The translations under genes and the position numbers were made by a program. From Aquabacterium humicola (GTDB lineage Bacteria; Pseudomonadota; Gammaproteobacteria; Burkholderiales; Burkholderiaceae_C), in assembly GCF_030167915.1 (NCBI RefSeq), contig NZ_JARGNB010000014.1, positions 1 through 50,349 on the forward strand: a DNA stretch of 50,349 nucleotides, read 5' to 3'. Within the stretch, counting starts at the first letter, position 1; each line of letters starts with the position of its first letter. The notes under the pieces were generated by a model that was not told the DNA's origin, made no database searches, and saw only the letters and a program-made list of their open reading frames with translations. Below are positions 10,758 to 27,597 of this stretch, one piece after another.

Positions 10758-10962
10758 CGGGGCGCTCCTTGAGTCGCGGCTGCAAGGCCACTTCCCCGAG
10801 GTCATCCGGCGTTTCGTCGTGGAGTTCAGCCCCGAGTTGGGTGGCTCCGTTGATGCTCTTGAAACGCGGCCATTCAGCGTTGTTGCTGGCGCATCAGGTC
10901 AAGACCACCATGTCGGCGATTGGGCATTCTGAATCGATTTGGCGACCCCAGGAGTCTGAAGT

Positions 10963-13410: not shown

Positions 13411-13785
13411 ATGACCCAGCCGATCGAAGCGACGACGATGACACTTGTGTCGCTGGCACTGGACGCCGCGGCGATGCGCCAGCAGGTTGGCGCCCACAAC
13501 ATCGCCGTCGCGAACACCGGTGCCCCGCTCGGCCGCGTCGAGTTCGAAGACCGGCTGACCGCCATTCGTAGCCAGCTGCAGTCGGGCACGACCCCGAACC
13601 TCGAGCAGCTGCGCGCGATGCGGCCGCAGGTCATCTGGGACGGCGGCTCCGCGAAGGGGGTGGCCGGGCTGGACCAGGAGGCTGCGCGGTTGTCGCAGAA
13701 CGCCCTGCATTACCAGGCGCTCGTGCGCTCGCTGGGGCACTACTTGGATCTGCGCTCGAGCGCGATCAACGACGGGAAGCGTTGA
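13411..13785 (+). CDS. flgB: Flagellar proximal rod protein FlgB-like
   Basis: A 124-residue protein at the head of the flagellar series. The rod N-terminal motif is degenerate: SLALDAAAMRQQVGAHNIAVANTGAPLG replaces the usual region with ASNIANADTPGY. The end, LSQNALHYQALVRSLGHYLDLRSSAIND, fits the FlgB C-terminal helix. FlgB joins FlgC, FlgF and FliE in the rod crossing the periplasm. GGAG lies eight bases upstream of the ATG, and the stop nearly touches flgC. The name rests as much on neighbours as on sequence. Confidence 0.8.
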   Translation: MTQPIEATTMTLVSLALDAAAMRQQVGAHNIAVANTGAPLGRVEFEDRLTAIRSQLQSGTTPNLEQLRAMRPQVIWDGGSAKGVAGLDQEAARLSQNALHYQALVRSLGHYLDLRSSAINDGKR

Positions 13786-13787
13786 AC

Positions 13788-14228
13788 ATGGACTACCGCG
13801 AGGCTTTCGCTATCAGCGCCACGGGCATGAACTTCGAGAAACAGCGCCTGGATGCAGCCGCCGCGAACCTGGCGAACATGCATGCGACGACCGGCCCCGA
13901 CGGGGCGCGCTATCGCCCGCTGCGCGTCGTCGCCGCGACGCCGTCCACGTCGTTCGCCGCAGCTTTCGGCCAGCAGTCGCCAGGCGTTGCCGCGCTGGGC
14001 GTGCACGGCGTGCGACTGGAGCTCGTGGACAGCCCGCCGCGCATGGTGCATGACCCGGGGCATCCGCATGCCGACGCGAACGGCATGGTGGCCTTCCCGG
14101 GTGTCGACCATGTCAGCGAGATGGTGACGCTCAACTCGGCCCTGCGCAGCTACCAGGCCAACGTGGTGGCGATGAACGCCGCCAAGGCGATGGCGCTGAA
14201 GGCCCTCGAAATCGGGAGCGGTAAGTGA
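13788..14228 (+). CDS. flgC: Flagellar proximal rod protein FlgC
   Basis: A 146-residue protein with the rod/hook N-terminal helix (AFAISATGMNFEKQRLDAAA, then ANLANMHATTGPDG) and the conserved C-terminal helix ending in VTLNSALRSYQANVVAMNAAKAMALKALEIG. The FlgC-specific stretch PHADANGMVAFPGVDHVSEM corresponds to the usual HPDADANGYVxxPNVD segment. It forms the proximal rod with FlgB. ATG 13788 sits two bases after the flgB stop, behind GGGAAG. Confidence 0.9.
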   Translation: MDYREAFAISATGMNFEKQRLDAAAANLANMHATTGPDGARYRPLRVVAATPSTSFAAAFGQQSPGVAALGVHGVRLELVDSPPRMVHDPGHPHADANGMVAFPGVDHVSEMVTLNSALRSYQANVVAMNAAKAMALKALEIGSGK

Positions 14229-14563
14229 ACGGAATCGAACCCGTCGCCTTCCTGCCGGCACTGCAGATGCCGACGTTGGCCGCCCCCCAGGCACCGTGGG
14301 ATGGCGGCGAGGTCGTCGCGGGCACCGCGGCCGTACCGACGAACGATGGCTTCGGTCGCCTGTTCGGCGAGCAGCTCGGCGCGCTCAACGCGAAGCTGGT
14401 CGAAGCGGATCGCAGCCTGCAGGACCTGGCCTCCGGCGAACCGGTGAACCTTCACCAGGTGATGATGACGCTGGAAGATGCCAAGCTCTCGCTGCAATTG
14501 GTGCTGCAGGTCCGCAATCGCCTGGTCGATGCGTATTCCGAGCTGCTGCGGATGCAGGTCTAG
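14225..14563 (+). CDS. fliE: Flagellar hook-basal body protein FliE
   Basis: A 112-residue protein of normal FliE size. The diagnostic C-terminal helices are clear: FGRLFGEQLGALNAKLVEAD, then GEPVNLHQVMMTLEDAKLSL and VLQVRNRLVDAYSELLRMQV. FliE joins the MS ring to the proximal rod. The GTG start overlaps the flgC stop (GTGA), so the two are translationally coupled. Confidence 0.93.
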   Translation: MNGIEPVAFLPALQMPTLAAPQAPWDGGEVVAGTAAVPTNDGFGRLFGEQLGALNAKLVEADRSLQDLASGEPVNLHQVMMTLEDAKLSLQLVLQVRNRLVDAYSELLRMQV

Positions 14564-14575
14564 TAGGAGTCGGCA

Positions 14576-16057
14576 GTGAACAAGGTTGGCGAATTCTGGG
14601 CCGCGCTGGGCCGTCCTGCCCGCGTCGGATTCGTGGTCGGTTGCATCGCGATCGCGGCAACGGCCGTCACCGGTGTCTACTGGGTGACGCGCACTTCGTA
14701 CGGAGTGCTGTTCAGCGGGCTGTCGAACCGCGATTCCGCGGCGATCGTCGCGGCGCTGGAAAAGGACAAGATCGGCTACCGGCTCGACGGCGACGGCAGC
14801 ACGATCCTCGTGCCCGACGAGCAAGTGCACAAGGTCAGGCTGAAGCTGGCCGGCGCCGAGCTGCCGCTGCAGGGTGGCGTCGGTTTCGAGCTCTTCAACA
14901 ACAACGAGGTCGGCATGACCGACTTCGCGCAGAAGGTCAACTACCAGCGCGCGCTGCAAGGCGAGCTGACGCGCACGATCGGCGCGCTGGACGAGGTGCA
15001 GGCCACCCGCGTGCATCTGGCGCTGCCGGAGCAGGGGCTGTTCCGGCGAGCGGGGGCCGCCGCACGGGCCAAGGCGTCGGTGACCCTGACCTTGAAGCCG
15101 GGGCGCCATCTCTCGCGCGAGCAGACCCGAGGCATCCAGCGGCTGGTCGCGGCGTCGGTGCCCGACGTAAGGCCCGAAGACGTCACCGTGCTCGATCAGC
15201 GCGGTCTGGCGCTGACGTCCGAAGGGGGTGGCACAGAGGGCGCACCGACTGGCGCAAGCGGATTCGACGGCAAGCGCGAGGTCGAGGAATACCTGGGCCG
15301 CAAGCTGCGCGACGTGCTGGACGAGACCTTCGGCGCCGGGCTGAGCATCGCCCGCATCGACGTCGTGCTCAACCAGGACCAGACCCGCGTGACGACCGAG
15401 AGCGTGCTGCCGGCCAATTCCTCGCAGGGCCACCCGGCGGGCGTGGTCGTGCGGCAGATGGAAACCGGCACGCCGCGCGATCCGTCGGGTGCGCTGTCGC
15501 CCGAACCGCCGAGCGGCGGGCGGACCCGCGACGTGCACTACCAGGTCGGGCGCCGCGTCGAGCAGATCGTCTCGGTTCCGGGTGGCATCAGTCGCATCAA
15601 CGTGGCCGTGGTCGTCAAGCGCCCGCTGGACCAGCGACAGACGGAGCGGCTGAAAGAGATCGTGGCGGCGTCGGTCGGCTTCAATCGGATGCGCGGCGAC
15701 ACGATGGCGATCCACTCGATCGACCAGATTCTCGGCGCTGGTGAATCGGGGGCGCAGACCGGCGCCTCGTCATCGGGCGACGCGCACGCGGTCGATGCCC
15801 AGGACGACGCGCTGCTGCTGCCGAAGCTCCGGCCGCCCGCGAAGCCAGCGGGTCAGGACTTCGACGCCACGATGCGGACCGCCGGCACGGCAACCGTGGT
15901 ACTGCTGATCGCCGTGATGCTGGCGTTCGCGTGGATGCTTCGCAAGCGGAGCAAGCAGCCGCCGCCGTCCCCGGCCGTCGGCAACCGCGAAGCGCTGCTG
16001 CGCGACGTCCAGGGATGGTTGCGCGAGCGCGCCGACGGCGCTGCGAAGAGGACGTGA
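14576..16057 (+). CDS. fliF: Flagellar MS-ring protein FliF
   Basis: A 493-residue protein, somewhat short for FliF (usually about 530-570). The first membrane helix is at ~18-40 (VGFVVGCIAIAATAVTGVYW). Ring-building motifs follow (VLFSGLSNRDSAAIVAAL, YQRALQGELTRTIGALDEV, ARVHLALPEQ-like VHLALPEQGLF, ASVTLTLKPGRHLSREQ). The second helix is at ~430-452. The tail after it is only about 40 residues (REALLRDVQGWLRERADG) and does not show the familiar FliG-binding end, which fits the reduced FliG-like protein encoded next. GTG 14576 follows AGGAG. Confidence 0.94.
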   Translation: MNKVGEFWAALGRPARVGFVVGCIAIAATAVTGVYWVTRTSYGVLFSGLSNRDSAAIVAALEKDKIGYRLDGDGSTILVPDEQVHKVRLKLAGAELPLQGGVGFELFNNNEVGMTDFAQKVNYQRALQGELTRTIGALDEVQATRVHLALPEQGLFRRAGAAARAKASVTLTLKPGRHLSREQTRGIQRLVAASVPDVRPEDVTVLDQRGLALTSEGGGTEGAPTGASGFDGKREVEEYLGRKLRDVLDETFGAGLSIARIDVVLNQDQTRVTTESVLPANSSQGHPAGVVVRQMETGTPRDPSGALSPEPPSGGRTRDVHYQVGRRVEQIVSVPGGISRINVAVVVKRPLDQRQTERLKEIVAASVGFNRMRGDTMAIHSIDQILGAGESGAQTGASSSGDAHAVDAQDDALLLPKLRPPAKPAGQDFDATMRTAGTATVVLLIAVMLAFAWMLRKRSKQPPPSPAVGNREALLRDVQGWLRERADGAAKRT

Positions 16058-16605
16058 TGAACGACCAACACCGCGCCGCCCTGGCCCTGCATGCCGCGAG
16101 CGCCGACGATCGGGCCTGGGTGTTGACTCAGCTCGCCGCCGGCCAGCGAGAGCCGCTTCAGGCATTGCTGGACGAGCTCGAATCGCTCGGCATTCCTCGT
16201 GAGACCTTGCAGGGCGCACCTGCCGCGGCACCCGCCGCCGCGGCGGACGGGCACGAAGCGGCCGCGGCGCAGACTCCGATCGAGCGCCTGCGCCGTGCCA
16301 GCGCGGCGTCGATGCATGCGGTGCTGGGCGGCGAGCCTGCCGGCCTGACTGCGGCCGTGCTGTCCCTGGGACCCTTCGCGTGGCGCGACGAATGCCTTGC
16401 GTTGCTTCCGTTGCAGCTGCGCACGGCCATCGAGGCCCATGCCCGCCCATCCGCAGCGCTGGCAGATGCCGCATTGCGGGCGGTCGCGCCCCGGCTCGCC
16501 GAGGTGGAGCAACAGCGACCCGTCCCCGTGGCGCCGGAGCAGACGCCGTCTCGGGGGCGCGACCCGCGCATGCTCATCGCGCGCTGGAGCCGTCTGTGGC
16601 GCTGA
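16057..16605 (+). CDS. FliG-like protein reduced to a middle domain
   Basis: A 182-residue protein exactly where fliG normally lies, its ATG overlapping the fliF stop (TGATG). FliG is usually about 330 residues. Residues 85-150 (HAVLGGEPAGLTAAVLSLGP, CLALLPLQLRTAIEAHA, LADAALRAVAPRLAEVE) match the pattern of the FliG middle (ARM_M) domain, where HPQTIAxxLAHL is followed by LALLPExLR. Residues 1-50 are a helical unit that is not clearly FliG_N; 52-72 are an Ala-rich linker. There is no C-terminal torque domain: after ~155 comes only a short basic tail. It probably links FliF to the FliM-like protein without taking up stator torque. Detection is by eye, so the homology needs a profile test. Confidence 0.55.
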   Translation: MNDQHRAALALHAASADDRAWVLTQLAAGQREPLQALLDELESLGIPRETLQGAPAAAPAAAADGHEAAAAQTPIERLRRASAASMHAVLGGEPAGLTAAVLSLGPFAWRDECLALLPLQLRTAIEAHARPSAALADAALRAVAPRLAEVEQQRPVPVAPEQTPSRGRDPRMLIARWSRLWR

Positions 16606-17486
16606 TCCTTCGTGTCCCTTCCTCCGCCACGGGCAAGACGCTGGTCCCGACCCGGCCGCTGGCCGAAGCCGGCGTCGACGCCATGGAGCCGCAGGTCGGT
16701 GCGGACGTCGCGGAAGCGACCGATCCGATCGACGAAGCACTGCAACGGGCCATCGAGCGCGGGCATGCGGAAGGTGTCGAGCAAGGACGCCGGGCAGGCT
16801 TCGAACGCGGCATCGAAGAGGGCCGTGCGGAAGGCCTGAAGCGCGGTGGCACCGAAGGTCGCGAAGCCCTGCAGGCAGCGGCCGAACGGCTGTGCGACCT
16901 GGCCGATGAACTCGCCCGTGCTCGCGCCGCAGCACTGCAGCAGGCGGAGGACGACATCGTCTGCATCGCCTTCGAAGCGCTGTGCAAGCTGGTGGGCGAC
17001 CACCTCGTGACGGCCGAAGGCGTCGCGGCCCACGTGCGCAACGTGATCGAGCGCGTGGCCGAGCCGCGCGGCATCCGCGTGCGTGTGAATCCGCAGGACC
17101 TTGCGCTGCTGAACGATCATCCGCAGGCGCATCGACCCGGTGAATCGCTAGAGTGGTGCGCCGACGCGTCGCTCGCCTGCGGCGGCTGCGTGGTGGAGTC
17201 CGCCGCCGGCGAGTTCCGTGCCCGGCTGGACGAGCAGCTGCGCCAGGTGCTCGGGCTGTTGCAGGACGCGCGGACCCGTTCCGCGGCCGAAGCCGATGCC
17301 ACGGCGCGTCTCACTGCGAAGTCGCTGCCGACGCAAGCGCCAAGGCTGTCGACCGCACCGGTGCCGGCCGCCGAAGTGCGCGTGGAACCCACGGCAGGGC
17401 CGACGCCGCAGAAGCCACCGGTGTCCGAGTCTGCGGCCGGCAAGCCTGCGCCCAAGGTCTTCAGCATGAAGTGGGGCGTCGCGTGA
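16596..17486 (+). CDS. fliH: Flagellar export ATPase regulator FliH
   Basis: A 296-residue protein. The middle has the FliH glycine-repeat helix (AIERGHAEGVEQGRRAGFER, GIEEGRAEGLKRGG) and then the conserved C-terminal domain (IVCIAFEALCKLVGDHLVTA, VRVNPQDLALLNDH, CGGCVVESAAGEFRARLDEQ). FliH binds the ATPase FliI and the C ring. The C terminus carries an extra Ala/Pro-rich stretch of about 70 residues. GTG 16596 overlaps the previous gene by ten bases, and the stop overlaps fliI. Confidence 0.92.
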   Translation: MALILRVPSSATGKTLVPTRPLAEAGVDAMEPQVGADVAEATDPIDEALQRAIERGHAEGVEQGRRAGFERGIEEGRAEGLKRGGTEGREALQAAAERLCDLADELARARAAALQQAEDDIVCIAFEALCKLVGDHLVTAEGVAAHVRNVIERVAEPRGIRVRVNPQDLALLNDHPQAHRPGESLEWCADASLACGGCVVESAAGEFRARLDEQLRQVLGLLQDARTRSAAEADATARLTAKSLPTQAPRLSTAPVPAAEVRVEPTAGPTPQKPPVSESAAGKPAPKVFSMKWGVA

Positions 17487-18793
17487 TGCAGCCTTACCTC
17501 GATTCGATCGCCAATGCGGACCTGGTGAGCCGCATCGGCTACGTGCGCCAGCTGGCCGGGCTCAGCATCGAGTCGCATGGTCCCGAGTCGATCGTCGGTG
17601 AGGTTTGCGAGCTGCGACCGCGCCGGGGCCGGGCCCTGCGGGCCGAGGTGGTGGGGTTTCGCGACGGCCGCGTCACACTGATGCCCTACGGCCACGTGCA
17701 CGGGATCGGACCGGGCTGCGAAGTGGTGGCGACGGGGCACCTGCCCGAAGTCGGAGTCGGCGAGGCGCTGCTCGGGCGTGTGATCGACGCCTTCGGCGAA
17801 CCGCTGGATGGCGGGCTGCGTCCCGCGACGCGGGCCCTGCAGCCCCTGAAGGCCGCACCGCTGAATCCGATGGCCAGGCCGCCCATCCGCGAAGCGATGG
17901 AATGCGGGGTCCGCGCCATCGACACCATGCTGACCCTGGGCCGCGGCCAGCGCGTGGGCATCTTTGCCGGCAGCGGCGTCGGCAAGAGCACGCTGCTCGG
18001 CATGGTGTCGCGCCACTCCACCGCCGATGTCAACGTCATCGCGCTCATCGGCGAGCGCGGGCGCGAGGTGCGCGAGTTCATCGACAGGCATCTGGGCGCC
18101 ACCGGGCTCGCACGCTCGGTGGTCGTCGTGGCGACCTCGGACCAGCCGGCGCTAGCGCGCGCGCGCGCCGCCTATGCGGCCACCGCCATCGCGGAATGGT
18201 TCCGCGACCAGGGCCGGCACGTGCTGCTGACGATGGACTCGGTGACGCGCTTCGCGATGGCAAAGCGGGAGATCGGCCTGACCGCCGGCGAACCACCGAC
18301 ATCGCGGGGCTACACGCCGTCGGTCTTCGCCGAGCTGCCTGAGCTGTGCGAGCGTTGCGGCACGGCGGAGAGCGGCGCCATCACGGCGCTGTTCACGGTG
18401 CTGGTCGAGGGCGACGACTTCAACGAGCCGATCTCCGATCTGCTGCGGGCCACGCTGGACGGGCACATCGTGCTCACGCGCCAGTTGGCCCAGCAGGGCC
18501 ACTACCCGGCCATCGACGTCCTGCAGAGCGCAAGCCGTCTGTTCAGCGAGCTGGTCCCCAAGCCGCGGCGCGAGCTGGTCTACCAGGCGTTCGAGGCAAT
18601 GTCGCTGTACCAGCGCAACCAGCAAATGATCGACATCGGTGCCTACCGTGCGGGCAGCAATCCCGAGATCGATGCCGCGATCCGGTTGGCACCGGGCGTC
18701 AGCCGATTCCTGCGGCAGCACGAAGACGAACGCATCGGCGGTGGCCAGGCCATGGCGGCGCTCGAAGCGCTGGTCGTGAAAGAAAGGAGCTGA
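17486..18793 (+). CDS. fliI: Flagellum-specific ATPase FliI
   Basis: A 435-residue protein of normal length. Walker A is GSGVGKST (from Gly162), followed by ALIGERGREVREF and the Walker B-like HVLLTMDSVTRFA. ALFTVLVEGDDFNEPI and the end QMIDIGAYRAGSNPEIDAAI are typical of FliI and SctN. It hydrolyses ATP to deliver substrates to the export gate. All catalytic motifs are intact. The ATG overlaps the fliH stop. Confidence 0.96.
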   Translation: MQPYLDSIANADLVSRIGYVRQLAGLSIESHGPESIVGEVCELRPRRGRALRAEVVGFRDGRVTLMPYGHVHGIGPGCEVVATGHLPEVGVGEALLGRVIDAFGEPLDGGLRPATRALQPLKAAPLNPMARPPIREAMECGVRAIDTMLTLGRGQRVGIFAGSGVGKSTLLGMVSRHSTADVNVIALIGERGREVREFIDRHLGATGLARSVVVVATSDQPALARARAAYAATAIAEWFRDQGRHVLLTMDSVTRFAMAKREIGLTAGEPPTSRGYTPSVFAELPELCERCGTAESGAITALFTVLVEGDDFNEPISDLLRATLDGHIVLTRQLAQQGHYPAIDVLQSASRLFSELVPKPRRELVYQAFEAMSLYQRNQQMIDIGAYRAGSNPEIDAAIRLAPGVSRFLRQHEDERIGGGQAMAALEALVVKERS

Positions 18794-18798
18794 TCGAA

Positions 18799-19278
18799 AT
18801 GTCCGCGAAACGTGGATTCAGGTACGCGCTGGAACCCCTGCGGGTCAAGGGCGAGTGGGAGCTTGCCGAGATGCAGGTTCGCTTGGCCGATTGCAATCGC
18901 GCCCTTGATGAAGTGCAGGTCGTTGTCGAACGCCTAACGGATGAAGTACGCAGCCAGTTCGATGCGTCGCGGACCGTCTCGGCGCCGAGCGACGCCATGG
19001 CGGCCGAAGTGCAGTCGATGCGGCGGGCCTACCTCGGGCTGCTGTCGCGCCGGCTCGAGTCGGCCGAGCGGGACAGGGGGCGCATCGAGGACCGGCAGCG
19101 CGAGATCGCCGAGCGGACCACCCGCATGCAGCGCTTCAACGATGGCATCGAGCGGCACCGCGACGAGCAATGGCAGGAGCACCTGAAGGGACTCGACGTG
19201 CAGGCCGGCAAGGAGGCGGACGACGCCTGGCTTCGCGGCCGCCATCGCGCGCGTTCGAATGCCAGGAGCAACGCATGA
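18799..19278 (+). CDS. fliJ: Flagellar export chaperone FliJ
   Basis: A 159-residue, charged, almost entirely coiled-coil protein (FRYALEPLRVKGEWELAEMQ at the start; LGLLSRRLESAERDRGRIED later), as expected for FliJ, the stalk that couples FliI to the FlhA gate. Its position after fliI agrees. AAAGGAG lies about ten bases before the ATG. FliJ is poorly conserved, so the name rests on shape and position. Confidence 0.8.
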   Translation: MSAKRGFRYALEPLRVKGEWELAEMQVRLADCNRALDEVQVVVERLTDEVRSQFDASRTVSAPSDAMAAEVQSMRRAYLGLLSRRLESAERDRGRIEDRQREIAERTTRMQRFNDGIERHRDEQWQEHLKGLDVQAGKEADDAWLRGRHRARSNARSNA

Positions 19279-20399
19279 AGATCGACGCCGACTTCGACGG
19301 TTCCGCGAACGAGCGCATGCAACGACAGGCCCGCGACAGGCACAACTCGACCAACGCGTGGCTCAGACAGATGGAAATGGCGATGCTGACGCAACCGGTT
19401 CGTCCGCACGGTGCAGACGCCGGCACACCGGCGCCGAGCGAGGACCGGCGTCCTGCGCTCATGCACGCCACGCCTGCCGGTCGGTCCGCCCCGCAGGTCG
19501 ACGCAAGTGACGCCGCCGCGCGTGGTCAAGGCGGTCGCGAGGATGCATTGGCGGGTCCCGATCGTGCAGTTGCCGGGCGGGACGTGCCCGCCGCCCGTGC
19601 GGGAACTGGCGGGGCGAACGACGACGGCGCTGCGACGTTCCATCGGGCCGGCCATGCAGCGGACCCCGAGCAAAGGGTGCGGTCGAGCGCGTCGAGCGGC
19701 GAGGTCCCCGACTCCTCGGAGAACGCGCCGGGCAAGGTCGCGCCGCGATCCGCGCCCATCGCGTCGTTCGAATCGGTCGCGTCGATCGGCGAGGGCCGGG
19801 CAGCATCGGCGGACGCGCCCGACGAGGTGGTGCATCAGTCCGCGCCGATCGCGGCGCGTCACGGCCATCGCCCCGACCCGCAGACGCGCGACATGACGCT
19901 GACGGCCGAGGCTCGGGCCGCGATGCGGGCCGAGGGTCAGGCGGACGCCGCCGTCGCGCCGCGCGCCGTGCAAGAACTTCGCGCGGCTTTGCGTGCGGCC
20001 GGCATGCCCGCGGCACGGATGCCTGCAGCCGCGGCGAGCGACGCGGCGGAACGCTCCGCAGCGGTGTCGTCGAGGACGACGCAAGCGGATGCGGAACCGT
20101 TGCCGGAGCGGACGCTGCACGTGACCCGCGATGTCGACGGCGTGCACGTCACGATCCGCGACGGCAGCCTTTCCGGCACCGCGCATGCCGCCGTCGTCAG
20201 CCGCCTGCTCTCCGAATTCAGGAGCGCAGGCCTAAACCTTCGCTCCGCCACCATCAATGGCGCCACGGCCTATGCCGCGTGGGCGGACGAAAGCATCGAA
20301 CTGACGTCGGACTCGTTCCAAGAGTCCGCCGACCGCGTTTCCAGCACCGCGCCATTCGATCGGCGCCCAGCCCACGAAAGGACTCGCCATGGCCAATGA
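19275..20399 (+). CDS. fliK: Flagellar hook-length control protein FliK-like
   Basis: A 374-residue protein between fliJ and flgD. Residues ~40-270 are low-complexity, rich in Ala, Pro, Asp and Arg, as in FliK rulers. The C-terminal ~90 residues (RTLHVTRDVDGVHVTIRDGS, HAAVVSRLLSEFRSAGLNLR, SATINGATAY) look like the switch domain of FliK, though divergent. FliK measures the hook and changes export specificity. ATG 19275 overlaps the fliJ stop and follows AGGAG. Confidence 0.75.
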   Translation: MKIDADFDGSANERMQRQARDRHNSTNAWLRQMEMAMLTQPVRPHGADAGTPAPSEDRRPALMHATPAGRSAPQVDASDAAARGQGGREDALAGPDRAVAGRDVPAARAGTGGANDDGAATFHRAGHAADPEQRVRSSASSGEVPDSSENAPGKVAPRSAPIASFESVASIGEGRAASADAPDEVVHQSAPIAARHGHRPDPQTRDMTLTAEARAAMRAEGQADAAVAPRAVQELRAALRAAGMPAARMPAAAASDAAERSAAVSSRTTQADAEPLPERTLHVTRDVDGVHVTIRDGSLSGTAHAAVVSRLLSEFRSAGLNLRSATINGATAYAAWADESIELTSDSFQESADRVSSTAPFDRRPAHERTRHGQ

Positions 20400-20787
20400 A
20401 GTGACCACGGTGCAATCGACCAGCAGCCTGCAGATGCAGGACTTCCTGAAGCTGCTGCTCACCCAGATGACGATCCAGGACCCGCTGTCGCCGCAGAACC
20501 CGCAGGACTTCATGGTGCAGATCGCGCAGTTCACCAACCTGCAGCAGACGCAGCAGATCAGTCAGAACACGTCCCAGATGCTGACGACGGATCTGTCGAC
20601 GCAGTCGATCACGCTGCTCGGCCGCAAAGTGGGCGTGATCGTCGGCAACTCGACCACACCCGTTAGCGGCACGGTGACCGGCATTCGGTTCGATCGAGGG
20701 CAGTCGCTGATGTCCATCGCGCCGACGAGTCCCGGCACCGCTCCGCTCGTCGACATTCCGCTGTCGCAGATCGCCAACATCCAGTAG
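20389..20787 (+). CDS. flgD: Flagellar hook-cap protein FlgD, short form
   Basis: A 132-residue protein; FlgD is usually 210-230. The N-terminal cap motif is strong (FLKLLLTQMTIQDPLSPQNP, DFMVQIAQFTNLQQTQQ) and is followed by a single small beta domain (ITLLGRKVGVIVGNST ... VDIPLSQIANIQ). The Ig-like middle insert of FlgD appears to be missing. FlgD caps the growing hook. The gene overlaps the end of fliK by eleven bases. Confidence 0.9.
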   Translation: MANEVTTVQSTSSLQMQDFLKLLLTQMTIQDPLSPQNPQDFMVQIAQFTNLQQTQQISQNTSQMLTTDLSTQSITLLGRKVGVIVGNSTTPVSGTVTGIRFDRGQSLMSIAPTSPGTAPLVDIPLSQIANIQ

Positions 20788-20799
20788 CCGGGAAACGCC

Positions 20800-22002
20800 A
20801 TGAACGACATCCTGAACCTCTGCTCGTCGGCGCTGGTCGCGTCGACGACTGCGCTCAAGAACACCAGCAGCAACCTGGCTAACATGAACACTGCCGGGTA
20901 CCGTGGCACGCGCATGTCATTTTCCAGCCTGTTCGACTCCGGCACGGGCTCGCACGCGAGAACCGCGAATGGCGGTGTCATGGCGACAGTGGCGTCGCTG
21001 AACACCAAGCCCGGCGGCTATAGCTCGACCGGCAACAGCAACGATCTCGCCGTGCTCGGTGCTGGATTCTTCGTGCTGAAGGACGCCAAGGGCGAACTCG
21101 TCTACACCCGCGCCGGTTCGTTCGAATGGAAGGACAACAAGCTGGTTGCGGGTGATGGCAGCGCCGTGCAGGCGCTGGAGAACGGCGTGCTGAAGGACAT
21201 CACCGTCGGATCGCTTCTTACGGATCCCGGTGTGGCGACGACCAAAGTCACCTTCGACAAGACCGGCAGCAACACGCTTTGGACGGGCCAGACCAGCGAC
21301 AAGTACTCGGTCGGCGTGACGATCTTCGACAGCGCAGGCGGCAAGCATCCGCTGACACTCACCTTCACGAAGGTGACGGCTCCGACGGGACAACCCACCA
21401 GCAATGCCTGGAAGGTGACCGTGTTGGAGAACGACAAGGACATCGGCTCGCCGAATCCGCCCTTCGAGCTGAAGTTCCTGAGCGGCGGCCTGTTGATCGA
21501 CGGGGCCTCCGAGATGAGCTTCAGCTACAAGCCCGAAGGTCAGGACGCCATGAACGTGAAGGTGGACTTCACGGGACTGAAGTCCTTGTCCTCTGCGATC
21601 TCATCGAGTCTCTCGCCATCGGCTGACGGACAGGCTACCGGAAACCTGCAGCTCGACAACCTTGTCTTCGGCAAGGACGGCAAGCTGCAGCTGAAGTACA
21701 CGAACGGCGAATCGGCCGATGGACCGATGCTGGCGCTGGCGCGGACTGAACGTCCCTCGGACTGGATACAGACCGGCTCCAGCCGATTCGAGGTCGCCGT
21801 CGGGGGCAGCGTCCGCTACGGTACGGCCGGCGAGGAGTTCGGCGAGATCGCCGCGGGACAGCTCGAGGGCTCCAACGTCGACGTCTCGCAGGAATTCTCG
21901 GACCTCATCGTCGCGCAGCGCATGTACCAGTCGGCTAGCCAGGTCATCCAGGCCACGAGCACGCTCAACGACGCGCTCCTTCGTGCCGCCGGAGGCCGCT
22001 GA
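20800..22002 (+). CDS. flgE: Flagellar hook protein FlgE
   Basis: A 400-residue protein. The N-terminal helix ends in NTSSNLANMNTAGYRGTRMS, the hook-basal body signature. The FlgE core has LAVLGAGFFVLKDAKGELVY and TRAGSFEWKDNKLVAGDG. The C-terminal helix is GSNVDVSQEFSDLIVAQRMY and ASQVIQATSTLNDALL. It polymerises into the hook outside the cell. The stop overlaps the next start (TGATG). Confidence 0.95.
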   Translation: MNDILNLCSSALVASTTALKNTSSNLANMNTAGYRGTRMSFSSLFDSGTGSHARTANGGVMATVASLNTKPGGYSSTGNSNDLAVLGAGFFVLKDAKGELVYTRAGSFEWKDNKLVAGDGSAVQALENGVLKDITVGSLLTDPGVATTKVTFDKTGSNTLWTGQTSDKYSVGVTIFDSAGGKHPLTLTFTKVTAPTGQPTSNAWKVTVLENDKDIGSPNPPFELKFLSGGLLIDGASEMSFSYKPEGQDAMNVKVDFTGLKSLSSAISSSLSPSADGQATGNLQLDNLVFGKDGKLQLKYTNGESADGPMLALARTERPSDWIQTGSSRFEVAVGGSVRYGTAGEEFGEIAAGQLEGSNVDVSQEFSDLIVAQRMYQSASQVIQATSTLNDALLRAAGGR

Positions 22003-22778
22003 TGGCCACCGTCACCCCCGACGCGTACGCCGTCCGGCCCTTGTCTGCGGAAAGGGTCGAGACGATCCGCAGGCACGCGACCGCTGCATGGCGCGCGTGG
22101 TGCGAGCAGTGGGGCGCAGACGAGCAAGCAGGCAGCGTCTCCTGCCGGCCGGCAACCCGCGAGGACAAGGGCGCGGCCTGGGCGGACGGCGCGGCAGACG
22201 CCGCCCTGGCCGGTGTTCGCATCCAGAGGCACAACGACCTATACGCATCGGTGGCGAGCAGCCTGTTCGGTCCGCTGCCGGATGCCCACGACGCTGCGCC
22301 GGCGGCACGTCAAGTGGCGTACGAAGCGGCCACCGCCCTGTCGCGGGATTTGTCGCGAGCGCTCGCTGAGCTGGCGGGCGCTCCCGGCACGATCCCTTCC
22401 CCGCAGGCATTCGAGCGCCATGCGGGAACGGCGATCGTCGAGCTGCGCATCGCCGAGCACGGCGGCTCGCTGAAAGCACTGGTTCCGGCAGCGTCAATGC
22501 CCGCGCCGAAACCGTCGCGCGAGCGCCCGCTGACGCCGTTGACGCAGGCCCTGGACACGCAGCGTGTGCGCATGTCGCTGACCGTCGGCGAAATCGCGAT
22601 GACGCTCGGCGAGATCGCGCAGGTCGGACCCGGCGACGTCCTGCCGCTTTCGACCCGCATCGACCGACCCCTGGCGTTGCAGCTCGATGACGGCAGCGCA
22701 CCTCTTTCGGCGTTCGTCGGCATGCGTGGAAGGCAGCTGGCTGTGCGCCTCGTCTCGACCGGCGAACACCTCGCCTGA
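22002..22778 (+). CDS. FliM/SctQ-like C-ring protein, short, without CheY-binding motif
   Basis: A 258-residue protein in the fliM position. Residues ~185-250 form a SpoA (surface presentation of antigens) domain: VRMSLTVGEIAMTLGEIAQV, GDVLPLSTRIDRPLALQLDD. FliM is usually ~330 residues and starts with an LSQxEIDALL segment that binds CheY-P. Here the N terminus (MATVTPDAYAVRPLSAERVE) lacks it, and residues 20-170 are not clearly the CheC-like middle domain. In length and layout it is closer to SctQ/HrcQ of injectisomes. It should pair with FliN to build a C ring or sorting platform, without chemotactic switching. Confidence 0.65.
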   Translation: MATVTPDAYAVRPLSAERVETIRRHATAAWRAWCEQWGADEQAGSVSCRPATREDKGAAWADGAADAALAGVRIQRHNDLYASVASSLFGPLPDAHDAAPAARQVAYEAATALSRDLSRALAELAGAPGTIPSPQAFERHAGTAIVELRIAEHGGSLKALVPAASMPAPKPSRERPLTPLTQALDTQRVRMSLTVGEIAMTLGEIAQVGPGDVLPLSTRIDRPLALQLDDGSAPLSAFVGMRGRQLAVRLVSTGEHLA

Positions 22779-22794
22779 CCTTGAAGGAATCACC

Positions 22795-23133
22795 ATGATC
22801 GATGAACGTGCCCTCGCGCCCGCAGCCATGTTGCCCACCGCGATCGAATACTCGGAAATGGACGATGACCGCGCCGATGGGCGCTCGTTGCTGGGCGGCA
22901 ATCTCGGCGTCGTGAAGAACATTAGCGTCAAACTGCAGGTGAAGGCCGGCGAGACGACGTTGAGCGTCGGCGAGCTGCTGGCGTTGCGCGAAGGGCAGGT
23001 GCTGAAGCTCGACGGGCAGGTGAACGCGCCGCTGCAGATCCTGCTTGAGGGCGAGGTGGTGGCCAGTGGCGAGCTGATGGCCATGGGCGAGCACTTCGCC
23101 GTGCGCATCATCGACACCGTGCGCCGCGGCTGA
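22795..23133 (+). CDS. fliN: Flagellar C-ring protein FliN
   Basis: A 112-residue protein of normal FliN size with a SpoA domain: LGVVKNISVKLQVKAGETTL, SVGELLALREGQVLKLDG, PLQILLEGEVVASGELMAMG, HFAVRIIDTV. FliN forms the base of the C ring and docks FliH. AAGGA lies eight bases before ATG 22795. It follows the FliM-like gene by 16 bases. Confidence 0.93.
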   Translation: MIDERALAPAAMLPTAIEYSEMDDDRADGRSLLGGNLGVVKNISVKLQVKAGETTLSVGELLALREGQVLKLDGQVNAPLQILLEGEVVASGELMAMGEHFAVRIIDTVRRG

Positions 23134-23157
23134 TCGCCGCACGTGCCGGAGCTCCGT

Positions 23158-23913
23158 ATGCGTGTCCCCGTCCGCCTGATCGCATGGCTGCTCGCCGGCG
23201 CGCCCGCGCTCGCGGTCGCAGCGGACAGGGCTTCGGTGCAGTTGCCCGGTGTCTCGGTGCAAATCGGCGGCGTGGGCGGAAGCGAGCAGGTCTCCTCGAC
23301 CTTGCTGGTGGCGCTGGCGCTCACGGTGTTGAGTCTGGCGCCGAGCATCCTGGTTTGCATGACGTCCTTCGTGCGCATCAGCATCGTGCTGTCCATGTTG
23401 CGCCATGCGCTCGGTCTGCAAGACACGCCGCCCAACACCGTGCTGGTCAGCCTGTCGCTGTTCCTGACCGCCTTCACGATGATGCCGGTCTTCGAGCGGG
23501 TCCATGTCGAAGCGGTGCAGCCGATGATGAGCGGCCGGATGAGCATCGAAAAGGGCATAGCTGCCGGTCTCCAGCCCATGCGCGAATTCATGCTGAGGCA
23601 AACCCGTCCCGAGGAGCTGGCCACCATGGCCGAGTTGTCCAGGAAGGAGCCGCCGGCCGACGCTGCCGAGACGCCGATCATGCAGCTGATCCCGGCCTTC
23701 ATGCTTTCCGAGCTGCGCATCGCTTTCCAGATTGCGTTCGCGGTGTTCCTGCCATTCCTGCTGATAGACATGCTGGTGGCGACGCTGTTGATGGCGCTCG
23801 GCATGATGATGGTGCCGCCAGCGACGCTGGCGCTGCCAATGAAGATCCTGCTTTTCGTGCTGATCGACGGCTGGAGCCTGCTGGTGCGCTCGCTGCTGGG
23901 CACGATCCGCTAG
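23158..23913 (+). CDS. fliP: Flagellar export gate protein FliP
   Basis: A 251-residue membrane protein. It has a cleavable signal peptide (LIAWLLAGAPALAVAAD) and the FliP signature: SILVCMTSFVRISIVLSMLR, LGLQDTPPNTVLVSLSLFLT, LIPAFMLSELRIAFQIAF and MALGMMMVPPATLALPMKIL. FliP, FliQ and FliR form the export gate in the inner membrane. ATG 23158 has GGAG seven bases upstream; GTG 23143 in the same frame is a weaker start. fliO, which often precedes fliP, is absent. Confidence 0.96.
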   Translation: MRVPVRLIAWLLAGAPALAVAADRASVQLPGVSVQIGGVGGSEQVSSTLLVALALTVLSLAPSILVCMTSFVRISIVLSMLRHALGLQDTPPNTVLVSLSLFLTAFTMMPVFERVHVEAVQPMMSGRMSIEKGIAAGLQPMREFMLRQTRPEELATMAELSRKEPPADAAETPIMQLIPAFMLSELRIAFQIAFAVFLPFLLIDMLVATLLMALGMMMVPPATLALPMKILLFVLIDGWSLLVRSLLGTIR

Positions 23914-23922
23914 GGCGCCGAC

Positions 23923-24708
23923 GTGGAGTCCACTGTGGAGGCGATCGTTGCCGGTTCGCCGGGCGCGAAGGAGCGCGAAGCGGACCTGTGGTTCCGCTGG
24001 CGGCACGAAGGGGACGGCACGGCGCGCGACAAGCTGGTGCACCACTACCTCGAATACGCCCGCATCATTGCCGCGAAGCTCTATCGCACCCGTTACAACG
24101 ATGAATGCGAGTTCGCGGACTACCTCCAATTCGCCACGATCGGAATGCTCGAAGCCATGGAAACCTTCGATCCTGACCGCGAAGTGACCTTCCGGACCTT
24201 CTCGTCGCGGCGCATCCACGGCAGCGTGCTGGACGGCATCCATGCGAGCAGCGAAACGCATCGGCAGATCTCAGCGCGCAAGATGCTGCTCGCCGAGCGC
24301 ACGGACTCGCTGGCGTCCGACAACGCCGATCGCGATGCCGCTGTCGCTGCCGCCGGTGCCGGCGACACGTTCCTCGGTCTGGTGGAGGTCGCGATCGGTC
24401 TGGCGCTGGGCTACATGCTGGAGGGCTCGGCGATGTACCATCCAGCCGATGACACCGCGGCCATCGATAGCGGGTACGAACGAATCGAGTTCAGGCAGCT
24501 CCAGGAGAAGGTGACCGCGCTGGTCAGGTCGCTGCCTCCGCGGGAATCGACGGTGATCCATGCGCACTACTTCAATCAGGTGGCCTTCCAGGACATCGCG
24601 CGTGCGCTCGGCGTCAGCAAGGTCCGCATCTGCCAGCTGCATCGTCAGGCGCTCGAGCGGCTGTATCGGAAGATGGTCGAGCTTCGGCTGACGGATCTCG
24701 CGGCCTGA
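23923..24708 (+). CDS. fliA: Flagellar sigma factor FliA (sigma-28 type)
   Basis: A 261-residue sigma-70-family protein. Region 2 is clear (LVHHYLEYARIIAAKLYRTR, FADYLQFATIGMLEAMETFD, FRTFSSRRIHGSVLDGI). Region 4 is an intact HTH (LPPRESTVIHAHYFNQVAFQ, DIARALGVSKVRICQLHRQA). It directs RNA polymerase to late flagellar promoters. Residues ~140-185 include an extra hydrophobic, Gly/Ala-rich stretch (VEVAIGLALGYMLEGSAMY) in the region 3 area. No flgM is present in the window. The start at GTG 23923 has only a weak ribosome site. Confidence 0.9.
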   Translation: MESTVEAIVAGSPGAKEREADLWFRWRHEGDGTARDKLVHHYLEYARIIAAKLYRTRYNDECEFADYLQFATIGMLEAMETFDPDREVTFRTFSSRRIHGSVLDGIHASSETHRQISARKMLLAERTDSLASDNADRDAAVAAAGAGDTFLGLVEVAIGLALGYMLEGSAMYHPADDTAAIDSGYERIEFRQLQEKVTALVRSLPPRESTVIHAHYFNQVAFQDIARALGVSKVRICQLHRQALERLYRKMVELRLTDLAA

Positions 24709-24713
24709 CCGTC

Positions 24714-25109
24714 ATGACCCGTGTCGACAATCCTTCGCTCGCGTTGGCTGCCCTGCAGGCCGAACTGACGCTGCGGCTGCAGCGAGCCCGGCGTACGCAG
24801 TCGGCCAAGGCCCCTCGTCCAGCGGCCCGGCATTCGTCTAACGTGCCGCGCGGCGAGCGCGATGCCATGCAGCGCGTGCAGGTCCAACTCGGCCAGCTGG
24901 CGGCGGGCGATCCCGATGCGCCCCGTAAGGCCTTTCGTCTGTTTCTCGAGTCCGTCTTCATCGAACAGTTCGGCGAGGCCGTCGTGCTGGATCCCGCATT
25001 TTTCGCGATGGTCGACGAGGTGCAGCGGCAGATGGAAGGCCATGCCGAATTGCGGCGCCGAATGGAGGCGTTGGCCCGTTCCATCCTCAAACCGGGCCCC
25101 GCGCCCTGA
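24714..25109 (+). CDS. Unknown flagellar-operon protein
   Basis: A 131-residue protein between fliA and fliQ. I recognise no family. It has no signal peptide or membrane segment. Residues 1-50 are basic and probably disordered; residues 65-125 are predicted helical with many charges (KAFRLFLESVFIEQFGEAVV, DEVQRQMEGHAELRRRMEAL). Its ATG lies five bases after the fliA stop and fliQ follows at once, so it is surely part of the operon. It might be an export chaperone, an anti-sigma factor for the adjacent FliA, or a structural part; nothing decides between these. Confidence 0.75.
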   Translation: MTRVDNPSLALAALQAELTLRLQRARRTQSAKAPRPAARHSSNVPRGERDAMQRVQVQLGQLAAGDPDAPRKAFRLFLESVFIEQFGEAVVLDPAFFAMVDEVQRQMEGHAELRRRMEALARSILKPGPAP

Positions 25110-25125
25110 CAGGGAGCTCCATGCC

Positions 25126-25392
25126 ATGGTCAGCGATGCAGCACTTCAGCTCTTCTCCGCCTTGCTCTGGAACACCGTGCTGATCTGCGCGCCGGTGCTC
25201 GGCCTGACCTTGCTGGTCGGCGTCGGCGTCAGCATCTTCCAGGCGGTCACGCAGATTCAGGACATGTCGCTCAGCTTCCTGCCGAAGCTCGTCGCCGCCT
25301 TCATCGGGCTGGTTGCTTTCGGACCGTGGATGCTGCGTCGGCTGGTGAGCTATGCCACCCAGGTGATCAGCAGCCTGCCTGGACAGTTCTGA
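25126..25392 (+). CDS. fliQ: Flagellar export gate protein FliQ
   Basis: An 88-residue protein with two membrane helices (NTVLICAPVLGLTLLVGVGV and LVAAFIGLVAFGPWMLRRLV) and the FliQ motif SIFQAVTQIQDMSLSFLPKL between them. AGGGAG lies upstream of ATG 25126. It forms the gate with FliP and FliR. The usual next gene, fliR, is 457 bases further on because of an intervening decayed gene. Confidence 0.95.
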   Translation: MVSDAALQLFSALLWNTVLICAPVLGLTLLVGVGVSIFQAVTQIQDMSLSFLPKLVAAFIGLVAFGPWMLRRLVSYATQVISSLPGQF

Positions 25393-25443
25393 GTTTCGAG
25401 CACCTCCTGCCTCAACGTCCCGGCAATCTCGACCAGCTGCGGC

Positions 25444-25818
25444 GTGAGTGATACCCCATCCCTAACCGAGGAACCCACGGTGATACATGGAAGCTGTGTT
25501 TGCGGTGCCGTGCAGCTCGACATCCAGGAGCCGCTCGAGCACTCCCCGGAAGCACTGCCACTGTTCTCAGTGCAGAAAGCACACAGGGACCCACTGGAGC
25601 GGCATCAACGTACGCCGGAGTGCGCTTCACGTACGAAGCGCGGAGTCAGTCCGGTGGTACCAATCGTCCGCGGTGGTTCAGCGAGGCTTTTGCTCGACCT
25701 GTGGTTCGACCGTGTTCTGGAATTCGACCATCGAGCGCACATGAAGCACGCCTTTGTCGGCGACAAGGGAGGCTACTATGAAATCTCCGACGATGCGCCC
25801 CAAAGTCCTGGGTTCTGA
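25444..25818 (+). pseudogene. GFA-family (glutathione-dependent formaldehyde-activating-like) gene remnant
   Basis: Pieces of a GFA/Mss4-fold zinc protein appear in order but in different frames: VIHGSCVCGAVQLDI first, KHCHCSQCRKHTGTHWSGI next, RWYQSSAVVQRGFCSTCGST with VFWNSTIE after it, and MKHAFVGDKGGYYEISDDAP at the end. All zinc-binding CxC and CxxC motifs survive, but at least two frameshifts break the gene. It lies between fliQ and fliR, which normally adjoin, so it is a later insertion. No IS ends were seen at its borders. Confidence 0.75.
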
Positions 25819-25849
25819 GTAGGCCGCTCCAAGCGCTGGATCCGGTTCG

Positions 25850-26593
25850 ATGGGCCTTGAGCTAGGGTTGGCTCCGCTGTGGCTGGTTCTGCTGTGCAGC
25901 TTCCGCGTGCTGCCAGTGCTGGTGCTGACGCCGCTGCTCGGCAGCTTCCCGATCCCGGCGCTGATCAAGACGATGATCGTGCTCGTGGTGTCGATCGCGA
26001 TGACGGGCTTCACCGGCTCGACGCACGTCCCGCTGCCCGCCGACGTGCTCGGACTGGGTGCTGCCGCGCTGTCGGAGTTCACGCTCGGCGGGCTCCTCAG
26101 CATCGGCATTCACGCCGTGTTCGGCGCGGTCTCGATCGCCGGCAAGCTCATCGACCTTCAGGCAGGCTTCGGCCTCGGCGCGATCTTCGATCCGATTTCC
26201 AGGCGGTCGGCCACCGTCATGCAGTCGGCCCTCGGCATGCTATGCGTGGTGGTCTTCTTCAGCATGGACATGCATCTGGTGCTGCTGCGCATGCTAGCCG
26301 AGTCGCTGCACACCGTTCCGCTCGGCTCGGGACCGTTCGACGTGGATGTCGGCGAGCTAATCCGGCGATCGTCCACACTCTTCGCGCTGGGCCTCGCGTT
26401 CGCGGGGCCGCTGGTGATGCTCTTGTTCCTCTTCGACCTGGGCTTGGCGGTGATGTCGCGCAGCGTGCCCCAGCTCAACGTGACCTTCCTCGGCATCGGC
26501 ATCAAGATCGCCGTGGCGATTGTCTTTATCGCGACCCTCGCGAGCACTTGGGGCGATGCATTCCGCCGGCTGCTTTCGATGATGGCCGGATAA
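25850..26593 (+). CDS. fliR: Flagellar export gate protein FliR
   Basis: A 247-residue membrane protein with about six hydrophobic helices. FliR motifs are present: FRVLPVLVLTPLLGSFPIPA, IGIHAVFGAVSIAGKLIDLQ with AGFGLGAIFDP after it, and DLGLAVMSRSVPQLNVTFLG. It completes the FliPQR gate. Its ribosome site is poor (GGAT only), and the GFA remnant now separates it from fliQ, so expression may be reduced. It is the last flagellar gene: flhB and flhA are not found. Before the IS5 insertion its stop lay 20-45 bases from the convergent AraC gene. Confidence 0.95.
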   Translation: MGLELGLAPLWLVLLCSFRVLPVLVLTPLLGSFPIPALIKTMIVLVVSIAMTGFTGSTHVPLPADVLGLGAAALSEFTLGGLLSIGIHAVFGAVSIAGKLIDLQAGFGLGAIFDPISRRSATVMQSALGMLCVVVFFSMDMHLVLLRMLAESLHTVPLGSGPFDVDVGELIRRSSTLFALGLAFAGPLVMLLFLFDLGLAVMSRSVPQLNVTFLGIGIKIAVAIVFIATLASTWGDAFRRLLSMMAG

Positions 26594-26674: not shown

Positions 26675-27184
26675 ATGAAGCAGCAGACCTTGGCAGTAGC
26701 CGCCGACCAAAACGCGCAGTACGAGCAGTACCGCAGGCCGACGAAGCGAGACGTCTTCCTGGCGACGATGGAAGAGATCGTGTCGTGGGCCGAGTTGTGC
26801 GCCGTGATCGAGCCGCACTACCCGAAGCCCGGCAACGGGCGTCCACCGGTTGGCTTGGAGAGGATGCTGCGCATGTACTTCGTGCAGCAGTGGTTCAACC
26901 TGGCCGACGCCGCGTGCGAGGACGCATTGCTCGACAGCACGGCGCTGCGGCGTTTCGCCGGCATCGACCTGGGCAGCGAGCGCGTCCCCGACGCGACCAC
27001 GCTGCTGAAGTTCCGCCGGTTGCTCGAGACGCACAAGCTGGGTGAGGGGTTGTTCGCCAAGGTAGGCGACGTATTGCAGGCCCGAGGCCTGGGGCACAGG
27101 GACGATCGTGGACGCCACGATCATCGGTGCCCCGAGTTCCACGAAGAACAAGGACAAGAAGCGCGATCCGGAGATGCACTAGTC
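26675..27184 (+). pseudogene. IS5-family transposase, N-terminal remnant
   Basis: The start is a typical IS5-group transposase (YEQYRRPTKRDVFLATMEEI, WAELCAVIEPHYPKPGNGRP, MLRMYFVQQWFNLADAACED, RFAGIDLGSERVPDATTLLK). A frameshift near 27090 moves the DDE entry ([20 protein letters not shown]) to another frame, and the gene stops at RDPEMH. The catalytic C-terminal half is missing. Confidence 0.85.
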
Positions 27185-27210
27185 CACTGAAGCATTGAAA
27201 TTGGCTGTGT

Positions 27211-27597
27211 ATGCTCCACCTTGGAGGGCATGCACAGGTGACTTTGACGGGGGACGAACGGTCCGAGCTCGAAGCGGTGATACGCAAGCGGCATGGCAAC
27301 GCGGCGCTGGCGCGTCGGGCGCGATGCGTGCTGCTTTGGGCGGGCGGCGAGCGGCGAGTGGATATCCGCACCAAGCTGGCCTGCAACGATGCCTTTGTCA
27401 CGCGCTGGACGAAGGCGTTCGAGTTCCAAGGCCTGGCGGGGTTGGTGTCGTTGCACCCGGGCCGCGCGCCGACAAGCCGCGCGATGGTTCGACGCACTGG
27501 AGCAGCCGCAAGCTCGCGGCCGAGCTGGGTGATGTCTCGTTCTCTGCCGTTCAGCGCGTCTGGCGCAAGCATGGCCTGCAGTCGCATCGGCTGCGAG
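27211..27597 (+). pseudogene. IS630-family transposase, N-terminal remnant
   Basis: The frame starts with an IS630 HTH (TLTGDERSELEAVIRKRHGN, ARRARCVLLWAGGERRVDIR, VTRWTKAFEFQGLAGLVSLH). After HPGRAP a deletion shifts the frame, and PRDGSTHWSSRKLAAELGDV with VWRKHGLQSHRL continues in the next one. It then ends abruptly in IS3 sequence at GAGAGGG. The DDE domain is absent. Confidence 0.75.

Follow-up and report, generated by a model that had tools for sequence, protein, structure and literature searches.

Non-flagellar type III secretion systems (NF-T3SS, or injectisomes) derive from the flagellum, and flgB, flgC and fliE are regarded as flagellum-specific genes (excerpt of PMC3459982). The needleless type III secretion system (T3SS*) of Myxococcus xanthus has no secretin, needle or translocon, operates together with a Tad pilus and is required for prey lysis (excerpt of PMC12075869). 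The non-flagellated bacterium Lysobacter enzymogenes retains flagellar type III secretion genes, its flagellum having been lost in evolution (excerpt of PMC7277350). Here we describe a flagellar operon of Aquabacterium humicola found at positions 13411–26593 of a stretch of 50,349 nucleotides (the window), which is an entire contig (C6) of a draft genome that comprises 7.39 Mb in 44 contigs. On balance we favor the view that the operon belongs to a non-rotary flagellar type III system that exports giant polymorphic toxins, the export being putative and drawn from association. This view builds on the gene content of the system, its conservation, hosts in which it stands alone with neither flagellin nor the FliG torque domain (FliG_C), and its association with giant Rhs proteins that carry a common leader.

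By gene complement, the window is one of two halves of the system: flgB to fliR lie on C6, and flhB to flgI lie on contig C9 (21,971 bases), which carries the flhB, flhA, flgF, flgG, flgA, flgH and flgI genes of this system. A first-pass annotation made from the letters of the window had listed flhA, flhB and flgF–L as absent, which is true of this contig only; a search of the whole genome located flhA and flhB on C9. FlhA was found at three sites in the genome: C2 (primary flagellum), C9, and C42 (L009, L010), where an injectisome-like type III secretion gene set is located. The primary flagellum of this genome, encoded on C2 and C12, has two flagellins, motAB and che genes, and contains the sole genomic copy of FliG_C. 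As first annotated, flgK, flgL and the filament, stator and che genes lie outside the system; all of these but flgK and flgL are recorded in the primary flagellum.

A search for the same gene order elsewhere returned matching contiguous operons on two plasmids. In Undibacterium sp. YM2, plasmid pUYM01 carries one operon that corresponds to the genes of C6 and C9, in the order fliQ fliR flhB flhA flgF flgG flgA flgH flgI flgB flgC fliE fliF, followed by the FliG-like gene and fliI fliJ fliK flgD flgE fliM fliN fliO fliP fliA; fliH is encoded on the opposite strand, and flgI is annotated as two pieces. The operon is likewise contiguous on a Variovorax plasmid, where fliK is unmatched. As predicted from sequence, the system retains the export gate (FlhA, FlhB, FliP, FliQ and FliR), the ATPase complex (FliH, FliI and FliJ), the MS ring, the rod, the P and L rings and the hook. 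It also keeps what appears to be a reduced C-ring scaffold (the N and M parts of FliG, a FliM-like protein and FliN) and has no predicted torque domain, stator, filament or filament cap.

The FliG-like protein (183 residues; 16054–16605, + strand, the gene overlapping the 3' end and stop of fliF) aligned to residues 2–185 of FliG in an hhalign profile comparison (E = 2e-6, probability 89.5). Because the alignment covers these residues only, the protein lacks the torque domain, and the first-pass description of it was thus borne out. The N and M parts of FliG bear the contact sides toward FliF and FliM. The 15 best Foldseek matches of the modeled protein were all FliG, yet the best E value was 0.07. 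Fold alone did not discriminate FliG_M from FliG_C, as both were among these weak matches, and it was the profile comparison that favored the N and M parts. In a Pfam scan of 45 FliG-like members the matches were to MgtE_N (18), FliG_M (7), FliG_N (4) and FliG_C (1), and the window protein matched none of the four.

To what extent this reduced set is conserved was judged from relatives. A FliF alignment scan of genome contigs confirmed 100 relatives, the best 80 of which were retained; by their titles these best 80 of 100 loci are betaproteobacterial except for three from Gammaproteobacteria (L069, L084 and L086). Many of the hosts are bacteria of soil and water. In the 67 of the 80 stretches that are at least 20 kb long, FlhA, FlgG, FlgI, FliF, FliI and FlgE were each found 67 times and the FliG-like protein 60 times. 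The scarcest were fliK (16/67), fliQ (46/67), fliJ (51/67) and fliA (55/67), low counts to which simple open reading frame (ORF) calling, the stretch ends and poor conservation all contribute. Full-length FliG, FliC, FliD, FlgK, FlgL, FliS, MotA, MotB, FliL and FlgJ were found by hidden Markov models (HMMs) in none of the 80 loci. All ten were recovered in the E. coli loci used as the positive control, and FliG, FliL, FliC, MotA, MotB, FliD and FliS were recovered in the fetched parts of the A. humicola primary flagellum. These control loci helped train the second-round HMMs, and the A. humicola primary genes were also found with E. coli proteins alone.

Whole genomes were searched for 50 of the 80 loci (the 30 dropped were 23 from metagenome-assembled genomes, one second contig of the same genome and six near relatives). 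FliG_C was not found in ten of these 50 carriers, and Flagellin_N was not found in exactly the same ten. The sole FliF detected in each of them is of the type described here; in the 50 carriers this FliF scored at least 350 bits and all others at most 241 bits. The ten hosts are Ramlibacter sp. WS9, R. paludis, R. pallidus, R. monticola, R. cellulosilyticus, Variovorax sp. 770b2, Variovorax paradoxus DS1452, Caenimonas koreensis, Caenimonas sp. SL110 and Polaromonas sp. A23. MotB_plug was not found in eight of the ten and matched weakly in R. paludis (28.1 bits) and R. monticola (24.4 bits), the cut-off being 24. Independent absences coincide in the same ten assemblies, the completeness of which is not reported. 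In V. paradoxus DS1452 (G418) this FliF is on both C27 and C28 (L048 and L095) with neighbors of somewhat different length, possibly two operon copies.

These hosts bear directly on whether the operon encodes a second motile flagellum that relies on the primary flagellum for its FliG, stator and filament, as the first-pass annotation had considered. Borrowing would fit the 40 of 50 carriers that have FliG_C and flagellin elsewhere in their genomes, the primary flagellum of A. humicola itself and the retention of the N and M parts by the FliG-like protein. However, since FliG_C, Flagellin_N and any other type of FliF are lacking in ten hosts (eight of them also having no MotB_plug), borrowing is not general. 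With no torque domain, stator or filament to borrow, no rotary flagellum is possible in those ten, and we consider this explanation very improbable. That the system is non-motile is well supported. Of the options first put forward, a non-rotating flagellum-derived secretion or hook-like system is the one that held up, given the torque-less and filament-less set in 80 loci and its stand-alone occurrence in ten of the 50 hosts.

Another explanation is that the operon is the decaying relic of a lost flagellum. In its favor, the A. humicola operon is in two parts, carries an insert and is bordered 3' by remnants of transposases, the FlgD and FlgE proteins that it encodes deviate at conserved sites, and flgI of pUYM01 is in two annotated pieces. 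The same reduced set, however, recurs in 80 loci, and the ratio of nonsynonymous to synonymous substitution rates (dN/dS) was at most 0.3 in 71 of 77 gene comparisons from nine pairs of relatives (maximum 0.55), although some of the ORFs compared are over-extended and dS was saturated in several pairs. Near-invariant sites are also kept in the A. humicola copy: 145 of 148 in FliI, 43 of 44 in FlhB, 248 of 263 in FlhA and nine of nine in the FliG-like protein. The FliI proteins of the system group in a single clade that is distinct from the primary flagellar FliI proteins of the same hosts and of E. coli, with support of 93/89 in a tree of 34 rows and 100/99 in a tree of 14 chosen rows with a wider outgroup, the root not being fixed in either. 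The 14 rows were hand-picked and the long-branch sequences L068, L077, L083 and L094 were left out; SctN falls outside the clade but was represented by only one sequence, on a long branch. As the clade is separate from those of the hosts' own flagella, the system is not a remnant of them. With open genes and mostly purifying selection, the decay first entertained does not hold for the family, and a relic seems hardly credible as an account of the locus.

If the non-rotary system exports proteins, its best candidate cargo would be the giant proteins encoded beside it. Very long YD-repeat frames adjoin the operon in the flanks of six of ten genomes, on the Variovorax plasmid and on C9. The giants have a common N-terminus, MVAIVSGNNLGL...LG..G..G, after which the Rhs wall begins, and the "tandem-95" protein of pUYM01 (encoded by a 38.8 kb gene) has the same kind of N-terminus. 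A 74-residue model of this start, of which the leader is about the first 35 residues, built from seven rows that included five carriers and A. humicola, matched in 47 of the 50 carriers, or 42 of 45 once the rows that match by construction were removed. The leader is on the contig of the operon in 28 of the 47 genomes, within 30 kb of fliF in 27 and within 20 kb in 25, as measured from estimated frame ends, the operon itself extending about 10 kb to each side. Of 73 leader frames (76 matches minus three that were partial second matches, in G403 and G425), 48 are at least 3,000 residues long, these being found in 38 genomes, and the longest is 12,840 residues. In A. humicola the leader giant is encoded on C9, on the opposite strand from flhB and some 2.2 kb away from it, and its frame is cut off by the end of the contig.

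The association was also seen in a draw of 399 genomes of the order to which A. humicola belongs. This FliF was present in 14 of them at an E value of 1e-90 or better (A. humicola counted) and the leader in 15: 11 of the 14 genomes with the operon and four of the 385 without it. The Fisher p value was 5.4e-16, or 1.1e-14 without A. humicola and 2.4e-13 when matches that miss the leader half were also removed; these values are uncorrected for kinship, and some genomes of the draw are also among the 50 carriers. Among the four leader-positive, operon-negative genomes, G177 has a 221-bit FliF 14 kb from the giant, with flgI, flgC and fliI homologs nearby, and this locus resembles a diverged copy of the system. 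In G298 there is a 401-residue frame and no such FliF, and the G218 match lacks the leader half.

For 20 giants the 3' end was retrieved at its estimated position, and the 17 closed frames among them were compared (L206 and L209, which run off the stretch, and L195, which ends inside repeats, were left out). The last 150 residues were alike in only one of 136 pairs, whereas the 600 residues at the start of the fetched stretches were alike in 118 of 136, a figure raised by shared repeats. Toxin- or pretoxin-type Pfam domains were present in six of 18 C-termini (the 17 fetched ends plus L132): GH-E nuclease in two, and Toxin-deaminase, AHH nuclease, CDI_toxin_EC869_like and PT-HINT. Of the 17 closed frames, 15 are followed, no more than 30 bases past the stop of the giant, by the start of a + strand ORF of at least 60 codons, a count that may include chance ORFs. 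Immunity genes are located directly after the stop of the toxin gene. The N-terminal parts of three giants (1332–2016 residues) were scanned and showed Rhs and Ig-type domains, PF05593 (YD/RHS repeats) being present in all three and PAAR in none. In these features the giants look like polymorphic toxins. Two giants of extreme length have leader frames of 9,292 residues in a Thiodiazotropha symbiont (G431, C19 near 184912–185130) and 12,805 residues in Undibacterium flavidum (G411, C13 near 104585–104803); the C-termini of these two (L205 and L207) gave no toxin-type Pfam match, and some giants may have a role other than that of a toxin.

Several of our results weigh against toxin export by this system. 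Twelve of the 18 C-termini have no toxin-type Pfam domain, that of L207, with a weak CBM_6 match, among them. Five of the 47 leader-positive carriers and A. humicola match the leader model by construction, its rows having been chosen for lying beside the operon, and the model spans the start of the Rhs wall such that leader and wall are not separated. The leader is off the contig of the operon in 19 of the 47 carriers, and no leader giant was detected in three of the 50. In the 399-genome draw, two of the 15 matches (G235 and G218) lack the leader half, three of the 14 operon-positive genomes (G025, G074 and G337, the last 87% complete) gave no leader match, and G249 has giants and no such FliF. 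The flagellar parts present elsewhere in 40 of the 50 carriers count on the same side, as does the A. humicola copy, in which FlgD, FlgE and FliE deviate at conserved sites (10 of 29, 18 of 68 and 3 of 16, respectively), as much as in any locus compared. Being split, with an insert between fliQ and fliR and with these deviating proteins, this copy may perhaps be altered.

The same results leave room for a working motorless exporter of other cargo, or a hook-like surface fiber used in adhesion, with the giants as mere neighbors that leave the cell by another exit. FlgE, which was kept in all 67 loci of at least 20 kb, would be expected of such a fiber, and the three carriers that have no leader, the leader-bearing G249 that has no operon and the putative nature of giant export are all in keeping with it. 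On the other hand, the giants both co-occur with the operon and adjoin it, and one other exit, the type VI secretion system (T6SS), is closed to those of some carriers. VipB of the T6SS was present in 33 of the 50 carriers and was not found in the other 17, which include five of the ten flagellum-less hosts. As 16 of these 17 are leader positive, the T6SS route is impossible there and the T6SS is not the general exporter of the giants; the three N-terminal parts scanned also had no PAAR. We therefore regard the fiber or other-cargo reading as unlikely, though it is the most serious of the competing readings, and retain export of the giants as the one we favor.

How such a non-rotary exporter might work can be outlined. 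The MS ring, FliG-like, FliM-like and FliN proteins would form a static sorting platform, and the rod, rings and hook would be built as a tube that spans the envelope. The leader would steer the unfolded giant into the export gate, perhaps with the assistance of a TPR protein. TPR chaperones exist in injectisomes, TPR homologs adjoin the operon in eight of 12 places examined (tblastn), and by analogy the TPR proteins beside the operon (in the window, 9585–10805, - strand, Pfam TPR) are chaperone candidates. The giant would then exit through the hook, and its C-terminal domain would act on neighboring cells. The sigma factor may set the timing of export. Upstream of 27 leader genes, two bipartite patterns of the sigma-28 consensus were found in none and the -10 core in one; the two A. 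humicola fliC genes and fliD, taken as controls, were also negative for the bipartite patterns, and the -10 core was present upstream of one of the fliC genes. The operon, being on plasmids in two species and patchily distributed in the order, would be old and would have been transferred between lineages. We give about an even chance to the broader proposal that flagella have a third fate besides swimming and the injectisome: an ancient, independent and horizontally moving lineage in which a fixed tube exports leader-selected giant Rhs toxins (to about 12,800 residues) between bacteria and, in some hosts, is the only system of flagellar type.

The remaining genes of the window locus are all on the + strand, and the flagellar gene set first named there, in one direction, was upheld, 13 genes by Pfam and four more (flgB, the FliG-like gene, fliJ and fliK), which have no useful Pfam match, by the orthologous operons. 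The proximal rod genes are flgB (13411–13785), which has no Pfam match but is 38.5% and 42.2% identical to flgB of pUYM01 and Variovorax, respectively, in the same gene order, and flgC (13782–14228; TTG start; Flg_bb_rod and Flg_bbr_C). These are followed by fliE (14225–14563; FliE, 5.5e-23) and the MS ring gene fliF (14576–16057; YscJ_FliF and YscJ_FliF_C). Past the FliG-like gene are fliH (16680–17486; FliH, 6.2e-16; start uncertain, the ORF being open from 16380), fliI, encoding the export ATPase (17486–18793; ATP-synt_ab and T3SS_ATPase_C; 68% and 64% identical to those of the two plasmid operons), fliJ (18799–19278; no flagellar Pfam match) and a fliK-like gene (19275–20399; no Pfam match). 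The last two were assigned by location plus weak similarity, fliJ to pUYM01 and Variovorax fliJ and the fliK-like gene to pUYM01. FlgD (20389–20787; FlgD, 4.5e-12) is short, as first described, consisting of the N-terminal domain alone (132 residues; median of relatives 135), and flgE (20800–22002; FlgE_D2 and Flg_bbr_C) encodes the hook. The FliM-like protein (22002–22778), first described as having no CheY-binding motif, has as its sole Pfam match a single C-terminal FliMN_C (SpoA) domain (9.7e-9, at residues 184–251). Next are fliN (22795–23133; FliMN_C, 2.5e-18; start likely, ORF open from 22687) and fliP (23143–23913; FliP, 7e-73). As fliN stops at 23133 and fliP starts at 23143 there is no room for fliO between them; the reported absence of fliO holds for this interval and that of fliL for the 80 loci searched by HMM.

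A fliA-like sigma factor gene (23923–24708; Sigma70_r2 and r4) precedes a gene for a small helical protein (24714–25109; AF2 pLDDT 75.5), HMM matches of which lie beside other such operons in 21 loci. No known chaperone could be recognized in the latter, the best Foldseek E value being 1.9 and no NCBIfam model matching more than one of 20 members. The genes fliQ (25126–25392; Bac_export_3, 1e-26; start read from the sequence) and fliR (25850–26593; Bac_export_1, 8.6e-49) are separated by an apparently broken, unrelated insert (25444–25818; no Pfam match), judged foreign because fliQ and fliR adjoin in pUYM01. Pieces of the insert resemble, by eye, what we take to be a GFA/CENP-V-type protein. 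Directly 3' of fliR are frames for transposases of two different types (26675–27190 and 27211–28137, + strand), a possible cause of the separation of fliR from flhB. Upstream of flgB, a frame at 10963–13074 (+ strand) has ricin-type lectin repeats together with an M19 membrane dipeptidase domain. A 1285-residue pretoxin HINT protein (4765–8622, - strand) has IS66-type transposase frames on one side of its gene and the TPR gene on the other. It was considered as the missing end of the giant and rejected, as it has no leader and only the HINT region is common (36% identity, to one giant); it may be an orphan fragment or a toxin in its own right. Elsewhere in the family, L058, L070, L084, L086 and L091 have a second FlhB-like frame of 90–107 residues directly 3' of flhA, as detected by HMM.

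If the favored reading is true, protein delivery has arisen from the flagellum on at least one further occasion, here with rod, rings and hook still present as intermediates, and living bacteria would offer a direct test of the step from flagellum to secretion. Hosts that have no T6SS (16 of the 50 searched carriers) would then have a named exporter for their giant Rhs proteins, and a physical question would arise: by what means a chain of 5,000–12,800 residues passes through a flagellar export channel. Among the top results from the open-licence PMC literature, none is about a flagellar operon without a motor that is associated with Rhs giants, and the system is not described in the excerpts consulted of PMC12248157, PMC3482391, PMC4122924 and PMC8565462.

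Compared with known systems, the giants resemble the Rhs/YD polymorphic toxins (excerpt of PMC3482391) in their YD repeats, their variable and in some cases toxin-type C-termini and the small ORF past the stop in 15 of 17 cases. They differ in their size (often 3,000–12,840 residues), their common N-terminal leader and their linkage to a flagellar operon; the lack of PAAR in the three parts scanned sets them apart also from T6SS-type Rhs proteins, as does the lack of VipB in 17 of 50 carriers. With the bacterial flagellum the system shares FlhA, FlhB, FliP, FliQ, FliR, FliH, FliI, FliJ, FliF, FliE, FlgB, FlgC, FlgD, FlgE, FlgF, FlgG, FlgH, FlgI and a FliA-like sigma factor. It differs in having no FliG torque domain, stator, FlgK, FlgL, FliD or flagellin, in its own FliI clade and in standing alone in ten of 50 genomes. 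Like the injectisome it would use a flagellar core for secretion without motility, but it has flgB, flgC and fliE, whose absence marks injectisomes (excerpt of PMC3459982), and it keeps the P and L rings (flgI and flgH) and the hook. The Myxococcus T3SS* is likewise a reduced type III system directed at other bacteria (putatively so here; excerpt of PMC12075869), whereas the present system retains rod, rings and hook and has a giant Rhs protein as its candidate cargo. Finally, as in Lysobacter, flagellar export genes are found in flagellum-less bacteria (excerpt of PMC7277350), but here they form a separate clade and a reduced operon that recurs in many genera.

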